Shown here: in pieces, positions 4,086 through 21,006 of the stretch | Layout: each line of letters starts with the position of its first letter | Numbering within the stretch: the first letter of the stretch is position 1 | DNA from: a virus | Length of the DNA: 21,086 nucleotides | Reading direction: 5' to 3' (one strand) | Virus record (IMG/VR): IMGVR_UViG_3300030108_001355 | Span: 1-21,086 of that record | The notes under the pieces: generated by a model | The model's input: the letters and a program-made list of their open reading frames with translations, nothing else | Told to the model about the DNA's origin: nothing | Database searches by the model: none | Made by a program: the position numbers and the translations under genes

Positions 4086-6197
4086 TTAATCTTTGTTTTT
4101 TAATGAACCCCTATTTTTCATATCTTTAGGAGTTTTCCATTCGTCCCTTATTGCTTTAGGGTAAAACCCTTCTGATCTTGCTTTTGCTGTAGAAACTAGC
4201 ATACTATCGTCTAAATCACGTTTCATACCACGTCCTATAGAAGTTCTAAAAATCAAACGCTGCCAGTAATGCTCACAGTAGGCACCCCCCTTAAATTCAA
4301 ACTTGTCGTAACCACTTGATCCTGAGGGACTTAACTCACTATTCATGTTAAACATTCCTTCTATTGCTTCTTTTGTATATATTTTATCAGCAGCCATTAA
4401 ATCTTCGCAAAAGTCCCTGCTAGTTCCACTAACGTTAGTTTGGCTATCGTCGTGCGTATATCTGTAACGAACCCTAAAATACCCTGAAACAAAACCCCTA
4501 CGTCCACCCACGCCGTCAAGCTCGCTATCTTCTTCTAGTTCTACTTTTGATAGTTCTGTATTAACTAAACTATTTAACTCGTTTTCAAAATCAAATTGTG
4601 GGTGTTCGCCGTCTGCATTTTCTACGTCTATAAGTTCCCAGTCGTCAGGTATATCTTCACCATATTTTTGTATATAATCACTTAATTTAGTTGCTTTAAT
4701 AGGCACGCAATTAGGCACTTCTCTGCCGTCTTTTATTTTAGTTCCTATAGCTTCGTAACCTTCTTCGCAAGGGTTAGGGCTTATAAACTCATGTTTACAA
4801 CCGCATTTACTTAAATTAGTTATTTGTTCGTGATCCTCGCAAGGCATGTAAACTGTTTTACCATTTTCTGTATGCGTGTGGTAACCACTACAACCTAAAC
4901 GTTCAGCTTCGGCTATAGCTTCTTCTTTTGTATCAAAAGTAGGAAGTTCTTTTTCAAAATCTTTTGCTACGTCTTCTTGTTTTTGTAACGGCTCTAAACC
5001 GAGTTCGCTTCGTATTTCGTCTTGCGTCATAACCGAAAGTAAAGTTTCAGTATCAAACCTATTTGTAAGTGGTTTATTCTGTATAAACGTCAAAGGGTAG
5101 TTTATACCATTAACACTAAGAAGCTTCTTTAAAACACTTAATATGTGGTTCTGATAAGGTTTTATAACGCTGTTTAAATATAAGTCAAAAGCTTCGCTCA
5201 TTTCGTTTGCGTTGTTACCCAGTCCTGAAGTATCACGTATACCGAAAAGTAAAGGGCTAACTACTCTATGAGCTGTAAGTATATTAGTCAATAAAAGCGA
5301 CTGTAAAGTTGTATATTGTTTATCTAAGTCAGGTGGGTTTATAGGCGTTATACTAGGTTCTCTATTTTTATCGTCGCTAAACGTTAAAACAAATTTACCC
5401 GCTGCTTTAGCTCCGACAAACTTATCTACAATACTTTGTTCTATACGCATACGTTCTTCTTGACTAGGAACTCCATTGTTAAACGAAATAAAGTAACTAC
5501 CTGAAAAAGAATTTTCTATATTAGATAAGTGAAACTCACTGACTTTCTGATCTATTAAAGCCCAGTTGCACCCAGCTACATAGTCTGGCGTATGGTATAT
5601 ATCCATATTAGGCGAATAAGTTCCTGAATATAATATTTGACTTGGTGAAGTCCTATCGTTTAAATCAAAAGCTGGCACTTCTTGCGGTGGGTTTTGTCTT
5701 GTGTCGCTCCAGTCGCTGCTAATATGAAAAGTATCTATAACGCCCATTTCATTAGGTATACCCACTCTTAAACGTTCTACTGGTACGTGATATATTTCTG
5801 CTATTTTAGTTCGTTCTGCGTTCCATATAATATTTAAAGCAAAACCACCCTGAAGTTTAAAATCTAAGCTGATTTTCTTTATTATTTCGTGTAAACTTTC
5901 TTTGCCGTTAGCGTGGTTTAAAAAAGATTTTAGTTCTAAATTATCGTTTTCTTCGTCTTCGCAAACTATATCTTCGCCAGCGATCATATCGGCTGTAGTA
6001 TTTATAATTGCTGCATGAGTTGAACTATTATAATATAAATCTATTAAAAATTGCGGGTAAAGATTAACCCAGCCTTCAGCTCCATACTCTATATAATTAC
6101 GCCCCCTTACTTCTTGAACTTTAGGTGCTGTTTGTGTTTCTAAATTTATACTTAAAACTTTTGTTTCTTTTTTAACTGGTGTTTTTCTTTTGCTCAT
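4086..6197 (-). CDS. Portal protein with extra C-terminal domains
   Basis: This 703-residue protein has a portal core at about residues 30-410: WVNLYPQFLIDLYYNSSTHA, ADMIAGEDIV, LDFKLQGGFALNIIW, the wing region with YHTPDYVAG, and ILTAHRVVSPLLFGI-RDTSGLGNNANEMSEAF before the C-terminal helices. Twelve copies would form the ring for DNA passage at the capsid vertex. Beyond the core come three small domains: an EEAIAEAERLGCSGYHTHTE-type motif ending in YMPCEDHEQI (about 425-459), a Cys-rich GYEAIGTKIKDGREVPNCVPI motif (480-500), and a domain with SRDFCEDLMAADKIYTKE then FEFKGGAYCEHYWQRLIFR (about 566-665). I recall these pieces as separate modules in head proteins or protease genes of other phages. 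The portal is therefore longer than the usual 400-550 residues. Confidence 0.85.
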   Translation of the reverse strand: MSKRKTPVKKETKVLSINLETQTAPKVQEVRGRNYIEYGAEGWVNLYPQFLIDLYYNSSTHAAIINTTADMIAGEDIVCEDEENDNLELKSFLNHANGKESLHEIIKKISLDFKLQGGFALNIIWNAERTKIAEIYHVPVERLRVGIPNEMGVIDTFHISSDWSDTRQNPPQEVPAFDLNDRTSPSQILYSGTYSPNMDIYHTPDYVAGCNWALIDQKVSEFHLSNIENSFSGSYFISFNNGVPSQEERMRIEQSIVDKFVGAKAAGKFVLTFSDDKNREPSITPINPPDLDKQYTTLQSLLLTNILTAHRVVSPLLFGIRDTSGLGNNANEMSEAFDLYLNSVIKPYQNHILSVLKKLLSVNGINYPLTFIQNKPLTNRFDTETLLSVMTQDEIRSELGLEPLQKQEDVAKDFEKELPTFDTKEEAIAEAERLGCSGYHTHTENGKTVYMPCEDHEQITNLSKCGCKHEFISPNPCEEGYEAIGTKIKDGREVPNCVPIKATKLSDYIQKYGEDIPDDWELIDVENADGEHPQFDFENELNSLVNTELSKVELEEDSELDGVGGRRGFVSGYFRVRYRYTHDDSQTNVSGTSRDFCEDLMAADKIYTKEAIEGMFNMNSELSPSGSSGYDKFEFKGGAYCEHYWQRLIFRTSIGRGMKRDLDDSMLVSTAKARSEGFYPKAIRDEWKTPKDMKNRGSLKNKD

Positions 6198-8571: not shown

Positions 8572-9480
8572 TTATGCTTGTTTTGTAATATCTGAAGCTA
8601 CTCCAGTTTGAACCCCTGCAGAATATTTACAAACTACCCTTAAATTATCTGAACCGTCAAGCTTAGCCATATCTAACATAGAAATTTGCGTAGCGTCAGA
8701 AAGTAAATCAGTTCCAAAGAATTGGTTTCCTTTTTCAGCTGCTACCATTACGTTATCAGATATACCACCTACTACAGCGATCTTAATTCCTTCAAAATAT
8801 GGTGTGTAATCTGACTGCATGTTATAAGCATTTACATAACCTAAAGTAGAAATAGCAGAAATATAAAATCTGTAAGTCTTTGGGTTCATGTAGATATATA
8901 AGTCTTCAGAAGCTTTTGCATATACGTTAGCTGGTATATCAGCTACTAAAGTTTGTAGGTTAGCTACTATGTTAGCTGCTGTATAAGCTGCAGAAGCTGA
9001 CGAAGACGTAGGAGCGTCTAAAGCATACATTCCAGTAGTAGAAGTTAAAAACCCTTCAAACTCACCGTTATTAGCTGCTGCTCCAGTCCAGCATGAAGTT
9101 TCAGTTGAATTTGCTATTTGTTCTGCTAAGTGGCTCATAACAAACGCTGAAAAGTCAGCACTCATACCATTGTTATTTGCTCCCGCAGTCATTTGTAAAG
9201 CTTGCCAGTCAGCAAGTAAATCACCTTTACATAAATCTACATTAATTTGTAAATTTTTTGGAGTTAAAACTTTTTCAGTCATTGTTAAAGTTCCACTATC
9301 TGTAAAATCACAAGTAGCATTTCTTACTAAAGTAGAACCTACTACTTTTGTAATATTTCTTTTGTATTTTACGTTTTCTAAGACTGTTAAGTAGTCTAAA
9401 CTTTTCGCTGATTTTAAGGCTGCAGAAATATACTGCCCAGCGTGATCGCCACTAAAATTTGAAGTTATACTTAAACCCAT
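8572..9480 (-). CDS. Major capsid protein (HK97-fold candidate)
   Basis: This 302-residue protein has FSGDHAGQYISAALKSAKSL at the N-terminus, then VKYKRNITKV, a CDFTDSGTLTMTEKVLTP region and NLQINVDLCKGDLLADWQAL. EDLYIYMNPKTYRFYIS and PYFEGIKIAVVGGISDNVMV follow, with a final RVVCKYSAGVQ. This order of a peripheral-domain start, a long helix, 'yi.m.pk.yr.y' and '.g.....v.G......v.a' matches MCPs of Bacteroidota siphoviruses that I recall. Many copies build the icosahedral shell. It follows the scaffold candidate by about 34 bases and precedes the tail tube gene. The N-terminus has no long cleavable delta domain, which fits a separate scaffold. Confidence 0.82.
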   Translation of the reverse strand: MGLSITSNFSGDHAGQYISAALKSAKSLDYLTVLENVKYKRNITKVVGSTLVRNATCDFTDSGTLTMTEKVLTPKNLQINVDLCKGDLLADWQALQMTAGANNNGMSADFSAFVMSHLAEQIANSTETSCWTGAAANNGEFEGFLTSTTGMYALDAPTSSSASAAYTAANIVANLQTLVADIPANVYAKASEDLYIYMNPKTYRFYISAISTLGYVNAYNMQSDYTPYFEGIKIAVVGGISDNVMVAAEKGNQFFGTDLLSDATQISMLDMAKLDGSDNLRVVCKYSAGVQTGVASDITKQA

Positions 9481-9514: not shown

Positions 9515-10237
9515 TTATTTACCTAAGTTAAATAGGTATCTTTCTTTAGTTGTTAAAGCTTTATACTCTGTAGAAGAAAGTTCTTGCATAGCTGACTTTC
9601 TTTTTTTACTAGAAAACTTTTTGCTTTGAACTGGTTTTGCAGCTGGTTTAGCTTTTGTAAAGTTCTTTTTTACTGACTTAACCTTTGTAGGTTTTTTAAT
9701 TGCGTCAAGTTCTTTTCTAATAATTGATAAAACTGTTCGCATTTCTTTAGATAAAGCTACTTCTTCAGCCTTTTCTTCTACTACAGCTACTGCAATTTCA
9801 GCTGCTTGTTGTGCAATTTCAGGTGTTACTTCGTCTGGAGTTGCTTCGTTAATAGCTTCAGCAATTTCTTCAGTAGCGCTTACTACTTCTTCTACTACTT
9901 CAGTTACCGCTTCTTCAGCTTCGTCTTCAGCTGGAGCTTCTTCTTCTTCGTATTCGTCTTTTTCTTTACCTGCGTCTACTTCTTCTTCTTCACCTTCAGA
10001 AACTTCAGAAATTACCCCTTCTTCAGCTACAGAAATTATCGTACCGTCTTCAAGTTCGTAATCACCGACTGGCAAAGGCATTGTAGTGCCGTCTTCAGCG
10101 AGTATCATTATGTTTGCACCCGCTACAAAATCAGTATCAGAAACTACTATAGTCCCGTCTGCCAATTTTGCTTGTGCTTCAAGCTTTATTTCTTTAGATA
10201 GTCCTAAAGCTTCTCTAATTTGATCTTTTAAATTCAT
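9515..10237 (-). CDS. Head scaffold candidate with acidic and basic blocks
   Basis: This 240-residue protein has a beta-rich N-terminus (LEAQAKLADGTIVVSDTDFV, then PLPVGDYELEDGTIISVAEE), a strongly acidic helical middle (about 72-160, with EGEEEEVDAG and EYEEEEAPAE), and a basic C-terminal block (about 180-216, with KSVKKNFTKAK and KKRKS). The order N-terminal domain, acidic rod, basic tail, located just before the MCP and close to the protease, is typical of scaffold or capsid-assembly proteins. The acidic part would contact basic capsid surfaces, and the basic tail may bind the capsid inner face or DNA. The N-terminal phrase recurs, as I recall, in Bacteroidota phage head clusters. The Glu-rich stretch also makes the opposite strand look like a Phe-rich ORF. 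Confidence 0.65.
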   Translation of the reverse strand: MNLKDQIREALGLSKEIKLEAQAKLADGTIVVSDTDFVAGANIMILAEDGTTMPLPVGDYELEDGTIISVAEEGVISEVSEGEEEEVDAGKEKDEYEEEEAPAEDEAEEAVTEVVEEVVSATEEIAEAINEATPDEVTPEIAQQAAEIAVAVVEEKAEEVALSKEMRTVLSIIRKELDAIKKPTKVKSVKKNFTKAKPAAKPVQSKKFSSKKRKSAMQELSSTEYKALTTKERYLFNLGK

Positions 10238-10292: not shown

Positions 10293-10724
10293 TTAGAACC
10301 CAAAGTCCCTTAATTCCCTTACTTGTTCGTCAAACCTTTCAGTAGCATAATCTAAATCGTCTAAAGCTTGTATATGTTCTTCGTATTGATCGTAAATATC
10401 TTCTACTGGTAAACCTAAGTCGTCTGCAGTTTGTTTTATTTGTGCTAAAATATCTCTATCACCAGCTACGTCAGCTTGATCTATAAAAGCCTCACTATTT
10501 TGAAAATATACAGCGTTTAAATTATTTCTTGCTTCTAGCCATTTATCAAAATTTTCGTCGTACCACTCTTCAGTTGAATAAAGAATTCTACTTACTTCGT
10601 CTTGTAAATACTGTACGTCGTCATAAGATAAATTGTCTATAAGTCCTAGTTCTACTTTTTTAGGCTCTATACTAAATTTTTTTATCTTTTTTACTTTCTT
10701 TATAAAGTTTTCGTGTTTTTTCAT
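10293..10724 (-). CDS. Coiled-coil head-cluster protein C (paralogue)
   Basis: This 143-residue protein begins with a Lys-rich stretch (MKKHENFIKKVKKIKK), followed by KKVELGL (22-28). The rest is helical, acidic coiled coil, with DEQVRELRD near the end and TADDLGLPVEDIYDQYEE at 99-116. That last motif matches AADELGLSPNELYADYDE of the neighbouring 142-residue protein, and LEEVGASPLDSELYQDL of the 140-residue protein fits the same pattern. All three have a basic N-terminus plus KK-x-[EN]-[LF] about 70-75 residues before this motif, so I take them as paralogues from duplication. They lie between protease and scaffold. Head-internal or assembly proteins are plausible. No enzyme motif is seen. 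Confidence 0.65.
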   Translation of the reverse strand: MKKHENFIKKVKKIKKFSIEPKKVELGLIDNLSYDDVQYLQDEVSRILYSTEEWYDENFDKWLEARNNLNAVYFQNSEAFIDQADVAGDRDILAQIKQTADDLGLPVEDIYDQYEEHIQALDDLDYATERFDEQVRELRDFGF

Positions 10725-10736
10725 TTTATTATTATT

Positions 10737-11165
10737 TTATTTCCAAAAATTAGAAGCTCCTATATAATTTATAACCTCTCTATATTTATCGTATGCGTCG
10801 TTATATAGGGCGTCAGCGTTATCTACTCTTTGTCTTAATTCGTCGTAATCAGCATATAATTCGTTAGGGCTAAGTCCTAGTTCGTCTGCAGCTGTTTGTA
10901 ATTTATCTAAACTTTCTCTTAAATTATCAGTAAATTCGTCTAAACTTTTTACAGAACTATTAACTACATAGTCGTCTATATTGTATTGTAAACGCAAATC
11001 TGAAAAAGCGTCTATAATTTCGTCGCCATACTCATAAGCTAAATAACTAGCTAACCCTTCAGCTTCTTCAAAGCTTTCAAATTTATTTTCAATATCGTCT
11101 ACTACCGATAAATTTATTTTTTTTGGTTTACTAAATTTAGCTAAATATTTTAAATCTTTTTTCAT
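10737..11165 (-). CDS. Coiled-coil head-cluster protein B (paralogue)
   Basis: This 142-residue protein has a basic start (MKKDLKYLAKFSKPKK), KKINLSV (15-21), a helical acidic body with LRESLDKLQTAADELGLSPN (83-102), and LYADYDELRQRVDNADALYN (103-122). It aligns best with the 143-residue neighbour over the GLSPNELYADYDEL segment. Coiled-coil composition, no cysteines, and no signal peptide suggest an intracellular rod-like protein. It follows the 29-residue micropeptide by four bases and precedes the third paralogue by about 12 bases. Packing in one operon with protease, scaffold and capsid suggests it is made with the head. Function is not known. Confidence 0.65.
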   Translation of the reverse strand: MKKDLKYLAKFSKPKKINLSVVDDIENKFESFEEAEGLASYLAYEYGDEIIDAFSDLRLQYNIDDYVVNSSVKSLDEFTDNLRESLDKLQTAADELGLSPNELYADYDELRQRVDNADALYNDAYDKYREVINYIGASNFWK

Positions 11166-11169
11166 ATTA

Positions 11170-11259
11170 TTATTTTTTACAGCAGTTATTACCGCATAAG
11201 TTTAAACAAATTATTCCTAGTGTTATAGTGCAAATAAAATCGCAAATTATTTTTTTCAT
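11170..11259 (-). CDS. 29-residue Cys-rich hydrophobic micropeptide
   Basis: An ATG at 11259-11257 opens a 29-codon frame ending at TAA 11172-11170. The peptide begins MKKIICDFICTITLGIICLN and ends LCGNNCCKK. Six of 29 residues are Cys, at 6, 10, 18, 22, 26 and 27; five fall in steps of four or eight, so they would lie roughly along one side of a helix. Residues 4-21 are hydrophobic, with Lys pairs at both ends, so it may sit in the membrane. It lies three bases after the 140-residue gene and four bases before the 142-residue gene. Such tight spacing on both sides argues that it is translated. I do not know a function. Confidence 0.6.
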   Translation of the reverse strand: MKKIICDFICTITLGIICLNLCGNNCCKK

Positions 11260-11262
11260 AGT

Positions 11263-11685
11263 TTAATTTATATAGTCTTCTGTTTCTCTTAATACATTAT
11301 TCATTGCTTCATTATCGCCTATATTATCTACAGCTCTTGATAAGTCCTGATATAGTTCACTATCTAAAGGGCTAGCTCCTACTTCTTCTAAAGCGTTGTA
11401 TAGTTTTTCTAATAACCTTTGTCCTTCTTCATATTTATCGTTTACGGTAGCTTCATATTCTTTTAAGAAGTTATACTGCATTTCTAATTTAAGATAAATT
11501 TCTGTAAATTGGTTTATTGTTGCTCTTAAATCTGAAGTGTTTCTAGATATTTCAGTTGATAAATTAATAGTTTCTTCTTTATAGTCATTTGTTTCTGAAG
11601 CTATACTAAATTCTACTTTTTTTGTTTTGTTAAACTTTTTTAAGTTTTTCGGTAACCTATTTAGGTATTTTTTGTTATTTTCCAT
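11263..11685 (-). CDS. Coiled-coil head-cluster protein A (paralogue)
   Basis: This 140-residue protein starts with a basic stretch (MENNKKYLNRLPKNLKKFNK) and has KKVEFSI at 22-28. Long acidic helical regions follow, including INQFTEIYLKLEMQYNFLKE and GQRLLEKLYNALEEVGASPL (about 88-107). The LEEVGASPLDSELYQDL stretch lies at nearly the same distance from the N-terminal motif as in the other two paralogues. Similarity to them is weaker elsewhere. Its ATG overlaps the end of the protease gene by 11 bases, so protease and this protein are probably coupled. It may be a protease substrate or capsid-internal protein, but that is inference. Confidence 0.62.
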   Translation of the reverse strand: MENNKKYLNRLPKNLKKFNKTKKVEFSIASETNDYKEETINLSTEISRNTSDLRATINQFTEIYLKLEMQYNFLKEYEATVNDKYEEGQRLLEKLYNALEEVGASPLDSELYQDLSRAVDNIGDNEAMNNVLRETEDYIN

Positions 11686-12307
11686 TTATTAATTCTTTAA
11701 GTGCTGTTAGTATTTTTTCGTTTGTAAATTTAGTATTTTTTTGTAGACTTTCTACACGATCTACAAAATAACCTTCTATACTTAAACCGAGTATTTTATT
11801 TTCTTTTACTAATTGCCATACGTCAGGGTTTTCTACTTTCATAGATACGAACCACGTTCCTACTGGTAAACCCTTATATCCATATAAATTAGATTTGTCT
11901 TCGTCGCCTGCTTTGATCCAGCTTTCTACAGTTAAAATACCTGCAATACGTTCTTGGTGTTCTAATGTAGCTTTATGGTGGTTATTATGTTTTAAATATA
12001 ACTCTGAAGCTTTTTTTACAGTATCTTTAGAAAAATAAACATAGTATTCTTGATCGTTATTAGCGTCGTATCTAAAAATTTGTTTATTTGGTATAAGCGC
12101 TGGGCTTATTATTGTTTTTTTGTCTTCGTCTATTTTACTTAAAGTCAAGTTGTTTTTAGCTTTATTAAAATAAACCATGTTTTGTTCTATAGCTGGCGCA
12201 CTTACTAAACTAATTGCGTCTATTGCTAAACTTTCTGCGTCGTCAGAAATAACAAGTTCTACAATTTTAGTATTTTTGTATTTCTTTTTCTTCTTTTTCT
12301 TAGTCAT
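11675..12307 (-). CDS. XkdF-like prohead protease
   Basis: This 210-residue protein matches the XkdF-type putative serine protease domain of phage head maturation. It has ELVISDDAESLAIDAISLVS then APAIEQNM near the N-terminus, ALIPNKQIFRYD (70-81), YYVYFSKDTVKKASELYLKH (88-107), HHKATLEHQ (110-118), LPVGTWFVSMKVENPDVWQL (147-166) and ILGLSIEGYF (172-181). His117 and Ser176 are the likely catalytic residues. The enzyme would cut scaffold and other head proteins during capsid maturation. The N-terminus contains seven Lys in a row at positions 3-9 (MTKKKKKKKY), which is unusual. It follows the tape measure gene and is coupled to the first coiled-coil paralogue. Confidence 0.78.
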   Translation of the reverse strand: MTKKKKKKKYKNTKIVELVISDDAESLAIDAISLVSAPAIEQNMVYFNKAKNNLTLSKIDEDKKTIISPALIPNKQIFRYDANNDQEYYVYFSKDTVKKASELYLKHNNHHKATLEHQERIAGILTVESWIKAGDEDKSNLYGYKGLPVGTWFVSMKVENPDVWQLVKENKILGLSIEGYFVDRVESLQKNTKFTNEKILTALKELINGK

Positions 12308-12342: not shown

Positions 12343-14601
12343 TTATATAGCACTTCTTCGTCTTATGTTTGCTAACTGATCTTGACTATTAGTTACTTCG
12401 TCAGTTACTACATAAGCTCGTATAGCCTGATCTTCTTGTGCTCCAGCTAAACTAAAAGCTTGATTAGCACCTCTAGGCGTAGGTGTGCTACCAGCTGGAG
12501 TTGAACCACCTTTACCACTCCCTACGTCTTGTGCATATATTTGTCTTACGTTAGCTAAACCAGCAGCTATAGTAGCTCCAGCAGCTATAAAACTAGCGGG
12601 TGCTGGTAAATCACTCATGGCTTTTGTTGCTCCTACATAAGTATTTATAATAGCTTGAGCTGCGCTTATAGCCTTTTTTCTAGCTTGTAGTTTACGATCT
12701 TTAGCCGCATACTTTTCTTCTATAGCTTCTTTTGCTGCTCCAGTTGCTCCCGTTGCTTCTATTTCAGCTTCCATTGCAGCCGTATTTTTAGATATACTTG
12801 CGTCTATATTTGACGTTACAGCGTCTAAAAATTGATTTGACGCTTCTATACTAGCTTGTAATACGTCTTCAGTTTCTTTATTTGTTTCTTGATTTTGTCT
12901 TTTTATTATATCGTTTCTAAGTTTAGCAGTTTTAATTTCTAAATCCACCATTTCAAATTCTAAGACTTGTATAGCTTGTTTTAGTGCTAGATTATCTTCT
13001 TCAGCTTCTACTTCTTCTTGTAAAACTTCTATTTTCTTACGTAAATCAGCTTTTCTTCTTAGGTGGGCTAAATCAAAATCTTCTAGTTCTTGTTTATGTT
13101 TATCTTTTAAATGTTGCCCGTTGTTTTCTAATATTGCGTCGTTTGTTTCTCTTTGTAAATCTTTTATTTCTTGAAACGCGCTATCGTATTCTGCTAAACT
13201 ATCATTTAAAAAGTCAGCTACTTGGGTTGCTGTTTTTTCTGCTATTTCTTTACGTTTATCTGCTAGTTCTTTTTCTGCGTCTTGTATTAATTTGTTGTAT
13301 TTTTGTGTTATTAAAAGTTCTTGTTCTTTTGCATTTTCTTTACCTGCTAAAGCTTCTAGTTCATAAGCAAGTTGCTGTTCTAATCTTAATATAGCTCGTT
13401 CTTCGTCAAGTTCTAGTTCTTGCAAAGCAATTTCTTCTTCTAGTTTTCTTAATTCTTCAGCTTCTTTTTTACGTTGTTCTCTAGTTTTATCTCCATTTGC
13501 TTTATCCATTTGTTGAACTGATAATTGCAAACCTGCCTTTTTTTCTCGTAATTGTTTTAAAGCTTTTTCTTGTTCTTTTAGAGCTTCTTGTCCTTCAGTT
13601 GCTACGTCGTCAGGATCAAAGAACATACCCGCTATACTTTCACTTGCATAAGCTATATCGTCTACGCCTGGTAATAAATTATATGCGTAAATTAAAGCGT
13701 CTACGGGTGCTGTAATCATTAATAGTAAACCAGTAAGTAAATCTTTATTTCTTTTAGCTGAAGCTATATCGGCTTCTATTTTTGCTTTTTGAGCTGCCAT
13801 CTCTACTTCCGAAGCTTGTATTGCTGCGTCTACTGCTTTTATTTTTAAATCTAATATTTCTCTTTGGCTTAAACCTTGCAGTTTCATTTGATTTGTAGAA
13901 CCCTCTATACTAGATAGCTCTTCAAGTGCTGCGTCTTTTTTAGCTGTAGTGAGTTCTAGTTGTTTTTCAGCCTCTGAAGTTCCAAAGCCCATAAAACTTA
14001 CTATATCGTCCCAGTAAGCCGCCATTGTGCCTAAAGCTACTACAATTAAACCTATACCAGTAGCAGCTATAGCTACTTTTAACGCTTTAAAACCTTTACT
14101 ACTTGTATTAGCGGCTATTCCTAAAAGTTTTGTAGTTCCTACTAAAACCTTTTGAGCTCCTGCCATAGCTAAGGTAATTACTTTGTTCTTAGCTGTTATA
14201 ACACCTCTTTTAATTAAGGTTAAATTAAGTTTACTTTCTTGTAAATTACGAACACCTACAGCAAGTGCAATTGCAGCTTGAACTTTTTTCTGAACCTCTC
14301 CTAGTTTTTCGCTTTTTGTGCCTAGTAAAGCTAAAGCTCCAGTAGCTACAGCAAAACCCCCTGAAACTGTATTTGAAATATCTTTTATTCCTATACTAGT
14401 TTGTTTAGAAGTCTTTTTAACGCCGTTAAGTTCTTCTTTTAATTTTTCTACATGCTTTGTAAGTTTATCAAAGTTTTTACCATTAATAGCTACTTCTTTA
14501 AGCGCTTCGTTAGTTTCTCTTAATTCCTTATTTATATCGTTTATAGAACGCCCTGCGTCTTCGGCGTCTAAATTTAATTTTGCATATATTTCTTCACTCA
14601 T
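12343..14601 (-). CDS. Tail tape measure protein
   Basis: This 752-residue protein sets tail length and helps DNA passage. It begins with a coiled coil (about 14-66), then several hydrophobic segments: GGFAVATGALALLG (81-94), VAIAATGIGLIVVALGTMAA (176-195) and GLLLMITAPVDALIYAYNLL (291-310). A long Glu/Lys/Gln-rich coiled coil follows (about 335-575), then SAAQAIINTYVGATKAMSDL (646-665), AGATIAAGLANVRQIYA and a final AYVVTDEVTNSQDQLANIRR. This order and the 'aqaiintY.gatkA' to 'AaGlanv.qI' end are typical of tape measure proteins of Bacteroidota phages. At about 0.15 nm per helical residue it would suit a tail near 110 nm, if uncleaved. A second, non-helical C-terminal part is Gly/Ser/Pro-rich. 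Confidence 0.88.
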   Translation of the reverse strand: MSEEIYAKLNLDAEDAGRSINDINKELRETNEALKEVAINGKNFDKLTKHVEKLKEELNGVKKTSKQTSIGIKDISNTVSGGFAVATGALALLGTKSEKLGEVQKKVQAAIALAVGVRNLQESKLNLTLIKRGVITAKNKVITLAMAGAQKVLVGTTKLLGIAANTSSKGFKALKVAIAATGIGLIVVALGTMAAYWDDIVSFMGFGTSEAEKQLELTTAKKDAALEELSSIEGSTNQMKLQGLSQREILDLKIKAVDAAIQASEVEMAAQKAKIEADIASAKRNKDLLTGLLLMITAPVDALIYAYNLLPGVDDIAYASESIAGMFFDPDDVATEGQEALKEQEKALKQLREKKAGLQLSVQQMDKANGDKTREQRKKEAEELRKLEEEIALQELELDEERAILRLEQQLAYELEALAGKENAKEQELLITQKYNKLIQDAEKELADKRKEIAEKTATQVADFLNDSLAEYDSAFQEIKDLQRETNDAILENNGQHLKDKHKQELEDFDLAHLRRKADLRKKIEVLQEEVEAEEDNLALKQAIQVLEFEMVDLEIKTAKLRNDIIKRQNQETNKETEDVLQASIEASNQFLDAVTSNIDASISKNTAAMEAEIEATGATGAAKEAIEEKYAAKDRKLQARKKAISAAQAIINTYVGATKAMSDLPAPASFIAAGATIAAGLANVRQIYAQDVGSGKGGSTPAGSTPTPRGANQAFSLAGAQEDQAIRAYVVTDEVTNSQDQLANIRRRSAI

Positions 14602-20634: not shown

Positions 20635-21006
20635 TTATTTTTTATTGTCTATTGATTTTAATTTTTTTATTGCCCAGTTAATACCACTCGTTCCACCCCA
20701 GCCTAGCCACGCTACATAACCTTTATCTTTCCACGGCGTAGACTTATATTCAGCTGCTACTTCTGCGTTCTTTTCGTGTCTTTTAAAACTAGCCATGCGG
20801 GCGATCGTTTCACGGCTCAAATTTTTTTTTGAGCACAACTGGTTTGCACGCGTCCACCCCACCCTCGTCATTCCTTTAACTTCGTCGCCGTGTTCTTCAC
20901 GCCACTTTAAAACCTTACATGCATTGTTGCTTGCGCTTTCAGGGTAATCGTTATAAGTTTCTAGTTTTGTTTCTTTAAGTTTATTTAAGTATGTTTTACT
21001 AATCAT
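20635..21006 (-). CDS. Conserved small phage protein (head-associated domain)
   Basis: This 123-residue protein has ESASNNACKVLKWREEHGDE (23-42), GMTRVGWTRANQLCSKKNLS (45-64), RETIARMASFKRHEKN (65-80) and GYVAWLGWGGTSGINWAIKK (96-115). The order 'G.trvGw.RA.qL......s..Ti.RM.sF.rH' then 'gy.aWl.WGG..g..Wa' is a widespread phage domain that I recall both alone and attached to prohead protease or other head proteins. Its biochemical role is not known to me. It is the first full gene of the window in transcription order, and its ATG overlaps the TGA of a possible 22-codon ORF (ATGA). The coding strand contains A9 inside a 7-bp hairpin (20815-20834), probably by chance. Confidence 0.65.
   Translation of the reverse strand: MISKTYLNKLKETKLETYNDYPESASNNACKVLKWREEHGDEVKGMTRVGWTRANQLCSKKNLSRETIARMASFKRHEKNAEVAAEYKSTPWKDKGYVAWLGWGGTSGINWAIKKLKSIDNKK

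Follow-up and report, generated by a model that had tools for sequence, protein, structure and literature searches.

Three adjacent genes of a phage known from sequence alone appear to encode two-part proteins, in which a short N-terminal tag stays with the phage lineage and the gene slot and the remainder, the body, is exchanged between phages as a cassette at one conserved junction. The genes lie in IMG/VR record IMGVR_UViG_3300030108_001355, positions 1-21,086 of which (the window, 21,086 bases) we analysed, between the prohead protease and a scaffold-like protein, and their open reading frames (ORFs), all on the minus strand, code for proteins of 140 (11263-11685), 142 (10737-11165) and 143 (10293-10724) amino acids (aa). 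At the level of sequence these proteins are homologous and modular, their family exchanges bodies at a single junction, its tags resemble scaffold C-termini, and some of its bodies are fused to the protease; the conserved K-V-x-L junction and the fusions are suggestive of tag removal by that protease. We propose, as the probable reading, that the three ORFs encode head cargo loaded by a scaffold-like tag and trimmed by the neighbouring protease of the Peptidase_S78_2 (S78_2) family.

A family of tagged proteins

An earlier note on this DNA had described the three ORFs as adjacent, related coiled-coil genes with two shared motifs, and its coordinates, lengths and motifs are correct. The first motif, KK-x-[EN]-[LF], is present as KKVEL (residues 22-26) in the 143-aa protein, KKINL (15-19) in the 142-aa protein and KKVEF (22-26) in the 140-aa protein. 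The second begins 72-74 residues past the end of the first, close to the spacing described; it is clear in the 143-aa (ADDLGL, 100-105) and 142-aa (ADELGL, 93-98) proteins but degenerate in the 140-aa protein (ALEEVG, 98-103). Homology among the three was borne out by a profile of 34 relatives, built without the window, that matches the 143-, 142- and 140-aa proteins at E=1.1e-26, 1.1e-12 and 6.3e-9, part of the score reflecting the K[VI]xL motif, since the seeds were picked partly by its presence within the first 50 residues. Enlarged to 60 sequences, the profile gives 9.5e-29, 1.5e-24 and 4.1e-12, and the 143-aa protein used alone as a query retrieves the 142-aa protein (E=2.1e-8, 29% identity). 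Single-sequence scans of viral contigs found 12 loci with the 143-aa protein and no confirmed relative with the 142-aa and 140-aa proteins, for which profiles were needed.

The relatives come from three scans of viral contigs with the major capsid protein (MCP), which gave at least 587, 597 and 599 confirmed stretches of related sequence, 80 loci being kept per scan. After removal of 17 duplicate loci, 233 distinct loci with an MCP remained, comprising IMG/VR contigs, the window, phage P12024L and three contigs of metagenome-assembled genomes (MAGs); two copies of the window (L014 and L015) are excluded from all counts. Profile scores, junction scores, isoelectric points (pI), charges and the per-locus ranking of termini refer to the first 94 loci or to a 57-member alignment, before duplicate removal. 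The family, called cargo below after its proposed role, comprises 237 ORFs in 112 of 234 loci; the additional locus, L009, has no MCP and contributes only to this count, with three ORFs. Where protease and MCP are both present (146 loci), 81 loci have no member between the two genes, 14 have one, 19 two, 25 three and 7 four, figures that give no population estimate of cargo carriage because every MCP query was taken from the window or from a locus to which the window had led, and two queries came from cargo-bearing clades. Tagged cargo genes also occur downstream of the MCP (five ORFs, for example L027 5486-5917 and 8754-9857, and L019 2683-3114).

The 57 aligned members have in common an N-terminal helix motif, a K-[VI]-x-L junction, with leucine as the junction residue in 55 and phenylalanine in two, and an A-x-E-L-G turn whose L-G is nearly invariant. 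Their tags are 19-36 residues long and mostly basic (median pI 10.0, above 9 in 40 of 57), and their bodies mostly acidic (median pI 4.2 and median charge -14.5, with a pI below 6 in 43 of 57). All three window proteins match the family profile (A3) and have the junction. In the 143-aa protein the tag (residues 1-26, ending in PKKVEL; 10647..10724) has a pI of 10.2 and a charge of +6.6, and the acidic, helical body (residues 27-143; 10293..10646 with the stop) a pI of 4.1 and a charge of -23.1. The tag of the 142-aa protein (residues 1-19, ending in PKKINL; 11109..11165) and that of the 140-aa protein (residues 1-26, ending in TKKVEF; 11608..11685) carry charges of +5.5 and +6.5, and the corresponding acidic bodies (residues 20-142, 10737..11108, and residues 27-140, 11263..11607, both with the stop) charges of -20.5 and -15.5. 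The weak points of membership are the tag score of the 143-aa protein, 3.2 as compared with 8.3 and 12.6 for the 142- and 140-aa proteins, and the degenerate turn (EVG) of the 140-aa protein. Across the family, tag and junction both score above threshold in 192 of the 222 members with a complete N-terminus and in none of 1006 other ORFs of 60-260 aa, with motifs that were trained on the family itself.

The helical character that the earlier note had expected is apparent in both AlphaFold2 models made, of the 143-aa (predicted local distance difference test score, pLDDT, 81.9) and 140-aa (89.6) proteins, which contain long helices. In the former, a low-confidence tag helix and linker precede a body of confidently predicted helices; confidence is distributed similarly in the latter, which consists of one very long helix, then the turn, then two short helices running back. 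When the 57 aligned members were scanned against PHROGs and Pfam, matches were to single members only (best 7.6e-5) and no family recurred, and a Foldseek search with the 143-aa model found nothing at E<=0.001 in the pdb and viral libraries. In a sequence search of solved structures, the matches listed (best 9.4e-8) were designed helical bundles, chemotaxis receptors and further coiled coils, which we read as an effect of composition.

Exchange of bodies at the junction

The relation between tag and body was examined in the 92 loci with cargo, scaffold and MCP, 76 of which pair at an MCP identity of at least 90%. They provide 530 slot-matched pairs of cargo genes (319 locus pairs), which share loci and are thus not independent, and for which slot matching needed a tag identity of at least 0.5. 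Median identity in these pairs is 0.93 for the MCP, 0.85 for the scaffold, 0.88 for the tag and 0.24 for the body. In a control matched by gene order alone, at MCP identities of at least 95%, the 121 pairs give 0.87 for the tag and 0.26 for the body, with bodies below 0.4 in 93. The change is abrupt: where tags are of equal length (114 of 447 swapped pairs), the junction leucine has an identity of 1.00, the residue after it 0.32, and the 18 positions beyond that 0.05-0.43. Third codon positions (42 swapped pairs of this kind with MCPs at least 95% identical) are 0.82 identical in tags, 0.79 in MCP genes and 0.95 in scaffold genes, and body nucleotides 0.33; the tag therefore behaves as core genes do, unlike the body. 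Although these are metagenomic contigs, in which assembly chimeras are possible, the same boundary is seen across many assemblies.

One pair of loci, L007 and L008, illustrates the pattern. Their protease, scaffold, MCP and portal are 97-98% identical and the second cargo is 99% identical beyond residue 28, whereas the first and third cargos are only 24% and 31% identical over that part and retain N-termini that are 75% identical. The reverse case also exists, with 40 pairs in which the body is at least 60% and the tag at most 60% identical, most clearly between L070 and L196 (98% body, 24% tag). In the MATSIT clade, recurring tags mark recurring gene slots, before and after the scaffold, as judged by reading the sequences. 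Clustering at 50% identity divides the 190 complete bodies into 99 clusters, of which 65 hold a single protein. The largest (17 proteins from five MCP clusters) includes the 143-aa body, whose nearest relative, in L001, is 66% identical in the body and 38% in the tag; the 142-aa body belongs to a cluster of 10 proteins from two MCP clusters, with its nearest relative (53%) in L117, and the 140-aa body has none above 29% among the 190. Such comparisons lead us to conclude, from sequence, that bodies are exchanged as cassettes, and the pattern is that of T4-type internal proteins, a short N-terminal sequence common to otherwise different proteins. They also qualify the view of the three ORFs as duplicated genes: they are homologous, but no two bodies of the same genome are more than 36% identical (137 pairs), which speaks against recent local duplication. 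With their nearest body relatives lying in other phages, recent tandem duplication is rejected.

The sharpness of the exchange bears on two other explanations. The proteins could be accessory scaffold or core proteins that help to form the prohead and are lost after degradation by the protease, with bodies drifting under low constraint, an idea that fits their acidic, helical, scaffold-like composition, their position in the operon, the likeness of their tags to scaffold C-termini and their varying number. Yet body identity in the 530 pairs is two-grouped (below 0.4 in 447, at least 0.8 in 47 and between these values in only 36), which suggests replacement instead of drift; the break sits at the junction in the swapped pairs with equal-length tags; and more than half of the loci with protease and MCP have no recognised member. 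We consider this explanation unlikely. Much less probable still is a role as head decoration or completion proteins, whose bodies, once the tag was removed, would be minor structural subunits bound to the capsid. Such a role would agree with the place of the genes in the head operon and with the nearly invariant L-G turn, but bodies are below 40% identity in 71 of the 103 pairs with MCPs at least 97% identical, and body exchange between phages with such similar capsids is hard to square with a specific fit to the shell.

Tag, scaffold, protease and the proposed role

A 9-residue tag motif, roughly [EKN][KR][VIL][FWLY][ASN][KER][LMI][SFAP]K, was derived from 51 non-redundant tags in 14 of 26 MCP clusters and applied leaving one cluster out at a time. 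It separates scaffold C-termini (178) from other C-termini (1226) and MCP C-termini (229) with an area under the curve (AUC) of 0.938, and in each of the 24 clusters with a scaffold C-terminus the median of these termini lies above background, with good scores in cargo-bearing clusters and also in some clusters devoid of cargo. Compared with shuffles of the same 16 residues, the AUC for scaffold C-termini is 0.826, several clusters, that of the window included, not being individually significant. The scaffold N-terminus and protease C-terminus also stand out from other termini (AUC 0.81 and 0.86); both drop to only 0.62 against their own shuffles, and composition therefore explains most of their signal. 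We do not claim the tag motif as a general feature of these two termini. The protease C-terminus of the window, EKILTALKE (11693..11719, minus), is an individual exception to the composition effect, with a score of 11.0 reached by none of 100 shuffles.

The junction is concentrated in cargo. Its score exceeds the 1% shuffle threshold in 64 of 67 cargo proteins, 18 of 67 proteases, 9 of 78 scaffolds, 7 of 626 other ORFs and none of 93 MCP ORFs. The protease start running into TKIVELVI and the scaffold start KEIKLEA were as the earlier note had described them, and it had seen in both a likeness to the cargo N-termini. For the scaffold this found support: [VI]xL, a pattern chosen after inspection of the sequences, is found between residues 11 and 50 in 96 of 178 scaffolds, as compared with a mean of 13.4 and a maximum of 25 in shuffles, and in the window a junction-like EIKLE stands at scaffold residues 16-20 (10178..10192, minus). 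For the protease, a simpler explanation is that its family has a conserved start, and the junction score there is above threshold in one protease of 67 (L045).

The cargo profile also matches 10 of 146 proteases at E<=1e-4, which are fusions of a body to the protease. Among the first 94 loci, seven fusions have the junction between protease and body, namely six of these ten and L049, in which the body match is weaker (E 0.001). A second passenger domain, SYxDYP...GGxxxxWA, has 104 profile matches, 92 of them fused to the protease C-terminus; 83 of the 92 start with [LM]-x-[ST]-[YF]-x-D-Y, preceded in 71 of the 83 by K or R no more than three residues before the L or M. In the window this domain stands alone, in a 123-aa protein without a Pfam match (20635-21006, minus) that begins MISKTYLNKLKETKLETYNDYP and, with its tag-like N-terminus (score 8.3), is a possible fourth tagged protein. 

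Other modules were seen around the protease. In the proteases of L004, L070, L084 and L090 a stretch E-[RIK]-[VIK]-x-L-[KA]-x-[VI]-D-E-D-K at about residues 36-48 immediately precedes the catalytic domain and matches the cargo junction motif; it is a possible self-cleavage site. A cysteine-containing N-terminal segment similar to MPCxKCxxGKYKWGxTGxCxY, possibly a zinc ribbon, occurs on proteases and ahead of cargo bodies (L001 3734-4444, L029 5514-6227, L043 5689-6327 and L045 447-932). Directly after the protease, L005 (3143-3316) and L007 (3997-4176) have an ORF of 57-59 aa with the sequence SPTGGSRACLCKDExTYSxDCCDGSLWAQGIG, similar forms of which, 63-126 aa long, occur in loci without cargo.

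Scaffold likeness and protease fusion are also what speaks most directly to the possibility that the tag is a recombination landing site, or a translation or expression element, and that the bodies are late cytoplasmic proteins that never enter the head, serving for instance in counter-defence or superinfection exclusion. The conservation of tags in front of swapped bodies, and the host-facing look of the bodies, would be expected in that case. But tags are better conserved at codon positions 1 and 2 (0.93) than at position 3 (0.82), their motif recurs at scaffold C-termini both with and without cargo in the cluster, and bodies are found fused to the prohead protease itself, so that this alternative appears improbable.

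The reading of the three proteins as tagged, trimmed head cargo agrees with the suggestion in the earlier note of a role like that of T4 internal proteins, which gains support from the constant tag, the sharp junction, the replaceable bodies, the tag motif at scaffold C-termini and the body-protease fusions. The scaffolds of tailed phages dock on the major capsid protein. By analogy, the short amphipathic helix of the tag ([KR]-[VIL]-[FWLY]-x-[KER]-[LMI]) would bind what the scaffold C-terminus binds on the inside, most probably the inner face of the MCP, and the cargo would be built into the prohead alongside scaffold and protease. The S78_2 protease would then cleave at or next to the junction, freeing a body that would stay in the head with the DNA and be injected at infection. 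A host-facing role, most probably the countering of host defences as by Ip1-3 of T4, is suggested by how often bodies are replaced, by the many body families and by the absence of redundant bodies in any one genome. The steps of this scheme do not carry equal weight: that the three are internal head proteins is very likely, that the protease cuts at or beside the junction is quite likely, and that the bodies are injected and counter host defences is a plausible extension on which we remain evenly divided.

Several observations weigh against this scheme. The scaffold C-terminus of the window itself, ERYLFNLGK (9518..9544, minus), at the position of the tag-like motif in relatives, matches the motif weakly, 23% of shuffles reaching its score, and a tag match there, when tested, was not significant; this terminus ranked 15th and 32nd of 40 termini for two tags tested, and the 143-aa tag scores poorly. 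In a ranking made locus by locus, 13 of 36 tags matched the scaffold C-terminus best, all eight tested from L005 to L010 among them, and 9 of 36 had their best match in the scaffold N-terminus. The composition effect at the scaffold N-terminus and protease C-terminus and the small fraction of scaffolds with a junction above threshold point the same way. The 81 loci without recognised cargo indicate that it is dispensable, the Pfam, PHROGs and Foldseek scans gave no structural or family match indicating a body function, and we found neither virion proteomics, cleavage data nor a cultured phage with these genes. 

Taken to its full extent, and more tentatively, the proposal describes a slot-based payload system in a large, mostly metagenomic phage group that probably infects flavobacteria. 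Each cargo-bearing genome would have one to four fixed tags that mimic the shell-binding helix at the scaffold C-terminus, with interchangeable bodies drawn from a very large pool, released by the protease at one junction and injected as pre-made counter-defence, and protease-fused passengers of the SYxDYP type might have a junction of this kind as well.

Gene neighbourhood and comparison with known systems

The likely genes of the window are all on the minus strand and follow, in order of transcription, as tape measure (12343-14601), protease, the 140-, 142- and 143-aa proteins, scaffold-like protein, MCP (8572-9480) and, later, portal (4086-6197). The 210-aa protease (11675-12307), whose 3' end is overlapped by the start of the 140-aa ORF by 11 nucleotides, belongs to Peptidase_S78_2/XkdF (PF14550, E=1.4e-13), with 51.3 bits against a curated cut-off of 24. 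The scaffold-like protein is acidic and 240 aa long (9515-10237), and its profile also matches a protease-scaffold fusion of phage P12024L (E=4.8e-14); the MCP was identified through relatives and is annotated as hypothetical in P12024L. The portal has extra C-terminal modules, a GCSGYHTHTENGKTVYMPC segment (Pfam DUF3721) and a CEEGYEAIGTKIKDGREVPNCVPIK segment, and past LSKVELEEDSELDG a further domain with GGAYCEHYW; the GCSGYHTHTENGKTVYMPC and CEEGYEAIGTKIKDGREVPNCVPIK segments are also present at the protease C-termini of some relatives (for example L061 and L064). 

Related loci occur in three genome assemblies, two of them labelled Flavobacteriaceae and Psychroflexus, which is consistent with a flavobacterial host. 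A head-module contig filed under a Euryarchaeota MAG (L096) is probably a mis-binned phage contig. A tblastn search of 50,697 phage records with five family members, the 140-aa protein not among them, gave no match. Cellulophaga phage phi46:1, whose MCP-like protein carries the annotation of a structural protein detected by MS/MS, was considered as a proxy for virion proteomics but rejected: its annotated protease is of the Clp type, and none of the cargo, protease and scaffold profiles matches the phage. Closer is Nonlabens phage P12024L/S (Inhavirus), which has homologous protease, scaffold part and MCP, but which encodes protease and scaffold as a single ORF of 349 aa, with the MCP gene immediately after it and no cargo gene in between.

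If the proposed role is right, a logic like that of T-even phages is placed in an apparently unrelated lineage common in viral metagenomes, with the tag and the junction residue marked out. The bodies would be a rich source of candidate injected effectors, open to screening for their host targets, and the suggested loading rule, imitation of the scaffold C-terminus, could serve to load proteins into phage heads.

The closest parallel is provided by the T-even phages, which have tagged, injectable head proteins with variable bodies, Ip1-3 blocking type IV restriction enzymes (PMC12373910). As in the proteins described here, these internal proteins (IPI/Ip1, Ip2 and Ip3, cleaved by gp21) combine a short constant N-terminal sequence with variable bodies, are several per genome and are accompanied by a prohead protease; those of T4 are injected, as would be the bodies here (PMC3012670, PMC12373910, PMC5694885). 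The proteins of our phages differ in being processed, as we propose, by an S78_2/XkdF protease, in being mutually homologous with mostly acidic bodies, in having slot-specific tags and tandem genes between protease and scaffold/MCP, and in the tag motif at scaffold C-termini and the bodies fused to the protease. No homology to T4 Ip proteins was found by indirect means, that is, the tblastn search with five members and the Pfam and PHROG scans of 57, with no direct comparison to T4 Ip sequences, and we therefore set the family apart from them.

Other systems share single elements. The inner-head paralogue family A of SPN3US and phiKZ (pfam12699) consists likewise of paralogous head proteins, with propeptides and in numbers that vary between phages, and gp53 and gp54 have their first 15 residues in common; these, however, are giant myophages in which the propeptides of gp53 and gp54 have 125 and 124 residues, as opposed to tags of 19-36 (PMC5694885). 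In phage P1, the 30 N-terminal residues of DarB suffice to send a reporter into the capsid, but DarB is one large protein (251 kDa) and not a variable cassette family (PMC9024508). In engineered P22, cargo fused to a truncated scaffold enters the procapsid through the scaffold segment (PMC9962691), whereas the scaffold-like segment proposed here is natural, short, N-terminal and encoded beside a phage protease. Among the matching open-licence PMC papers listed, mostly as titles and the beginnings of abstracts, we found no account of such proteins in flavobacterial phages. The principle is thus already known; what is new is the lineage, the protein family, the slot-wise tags, the resemblance to the scaffold and the protease fusions.

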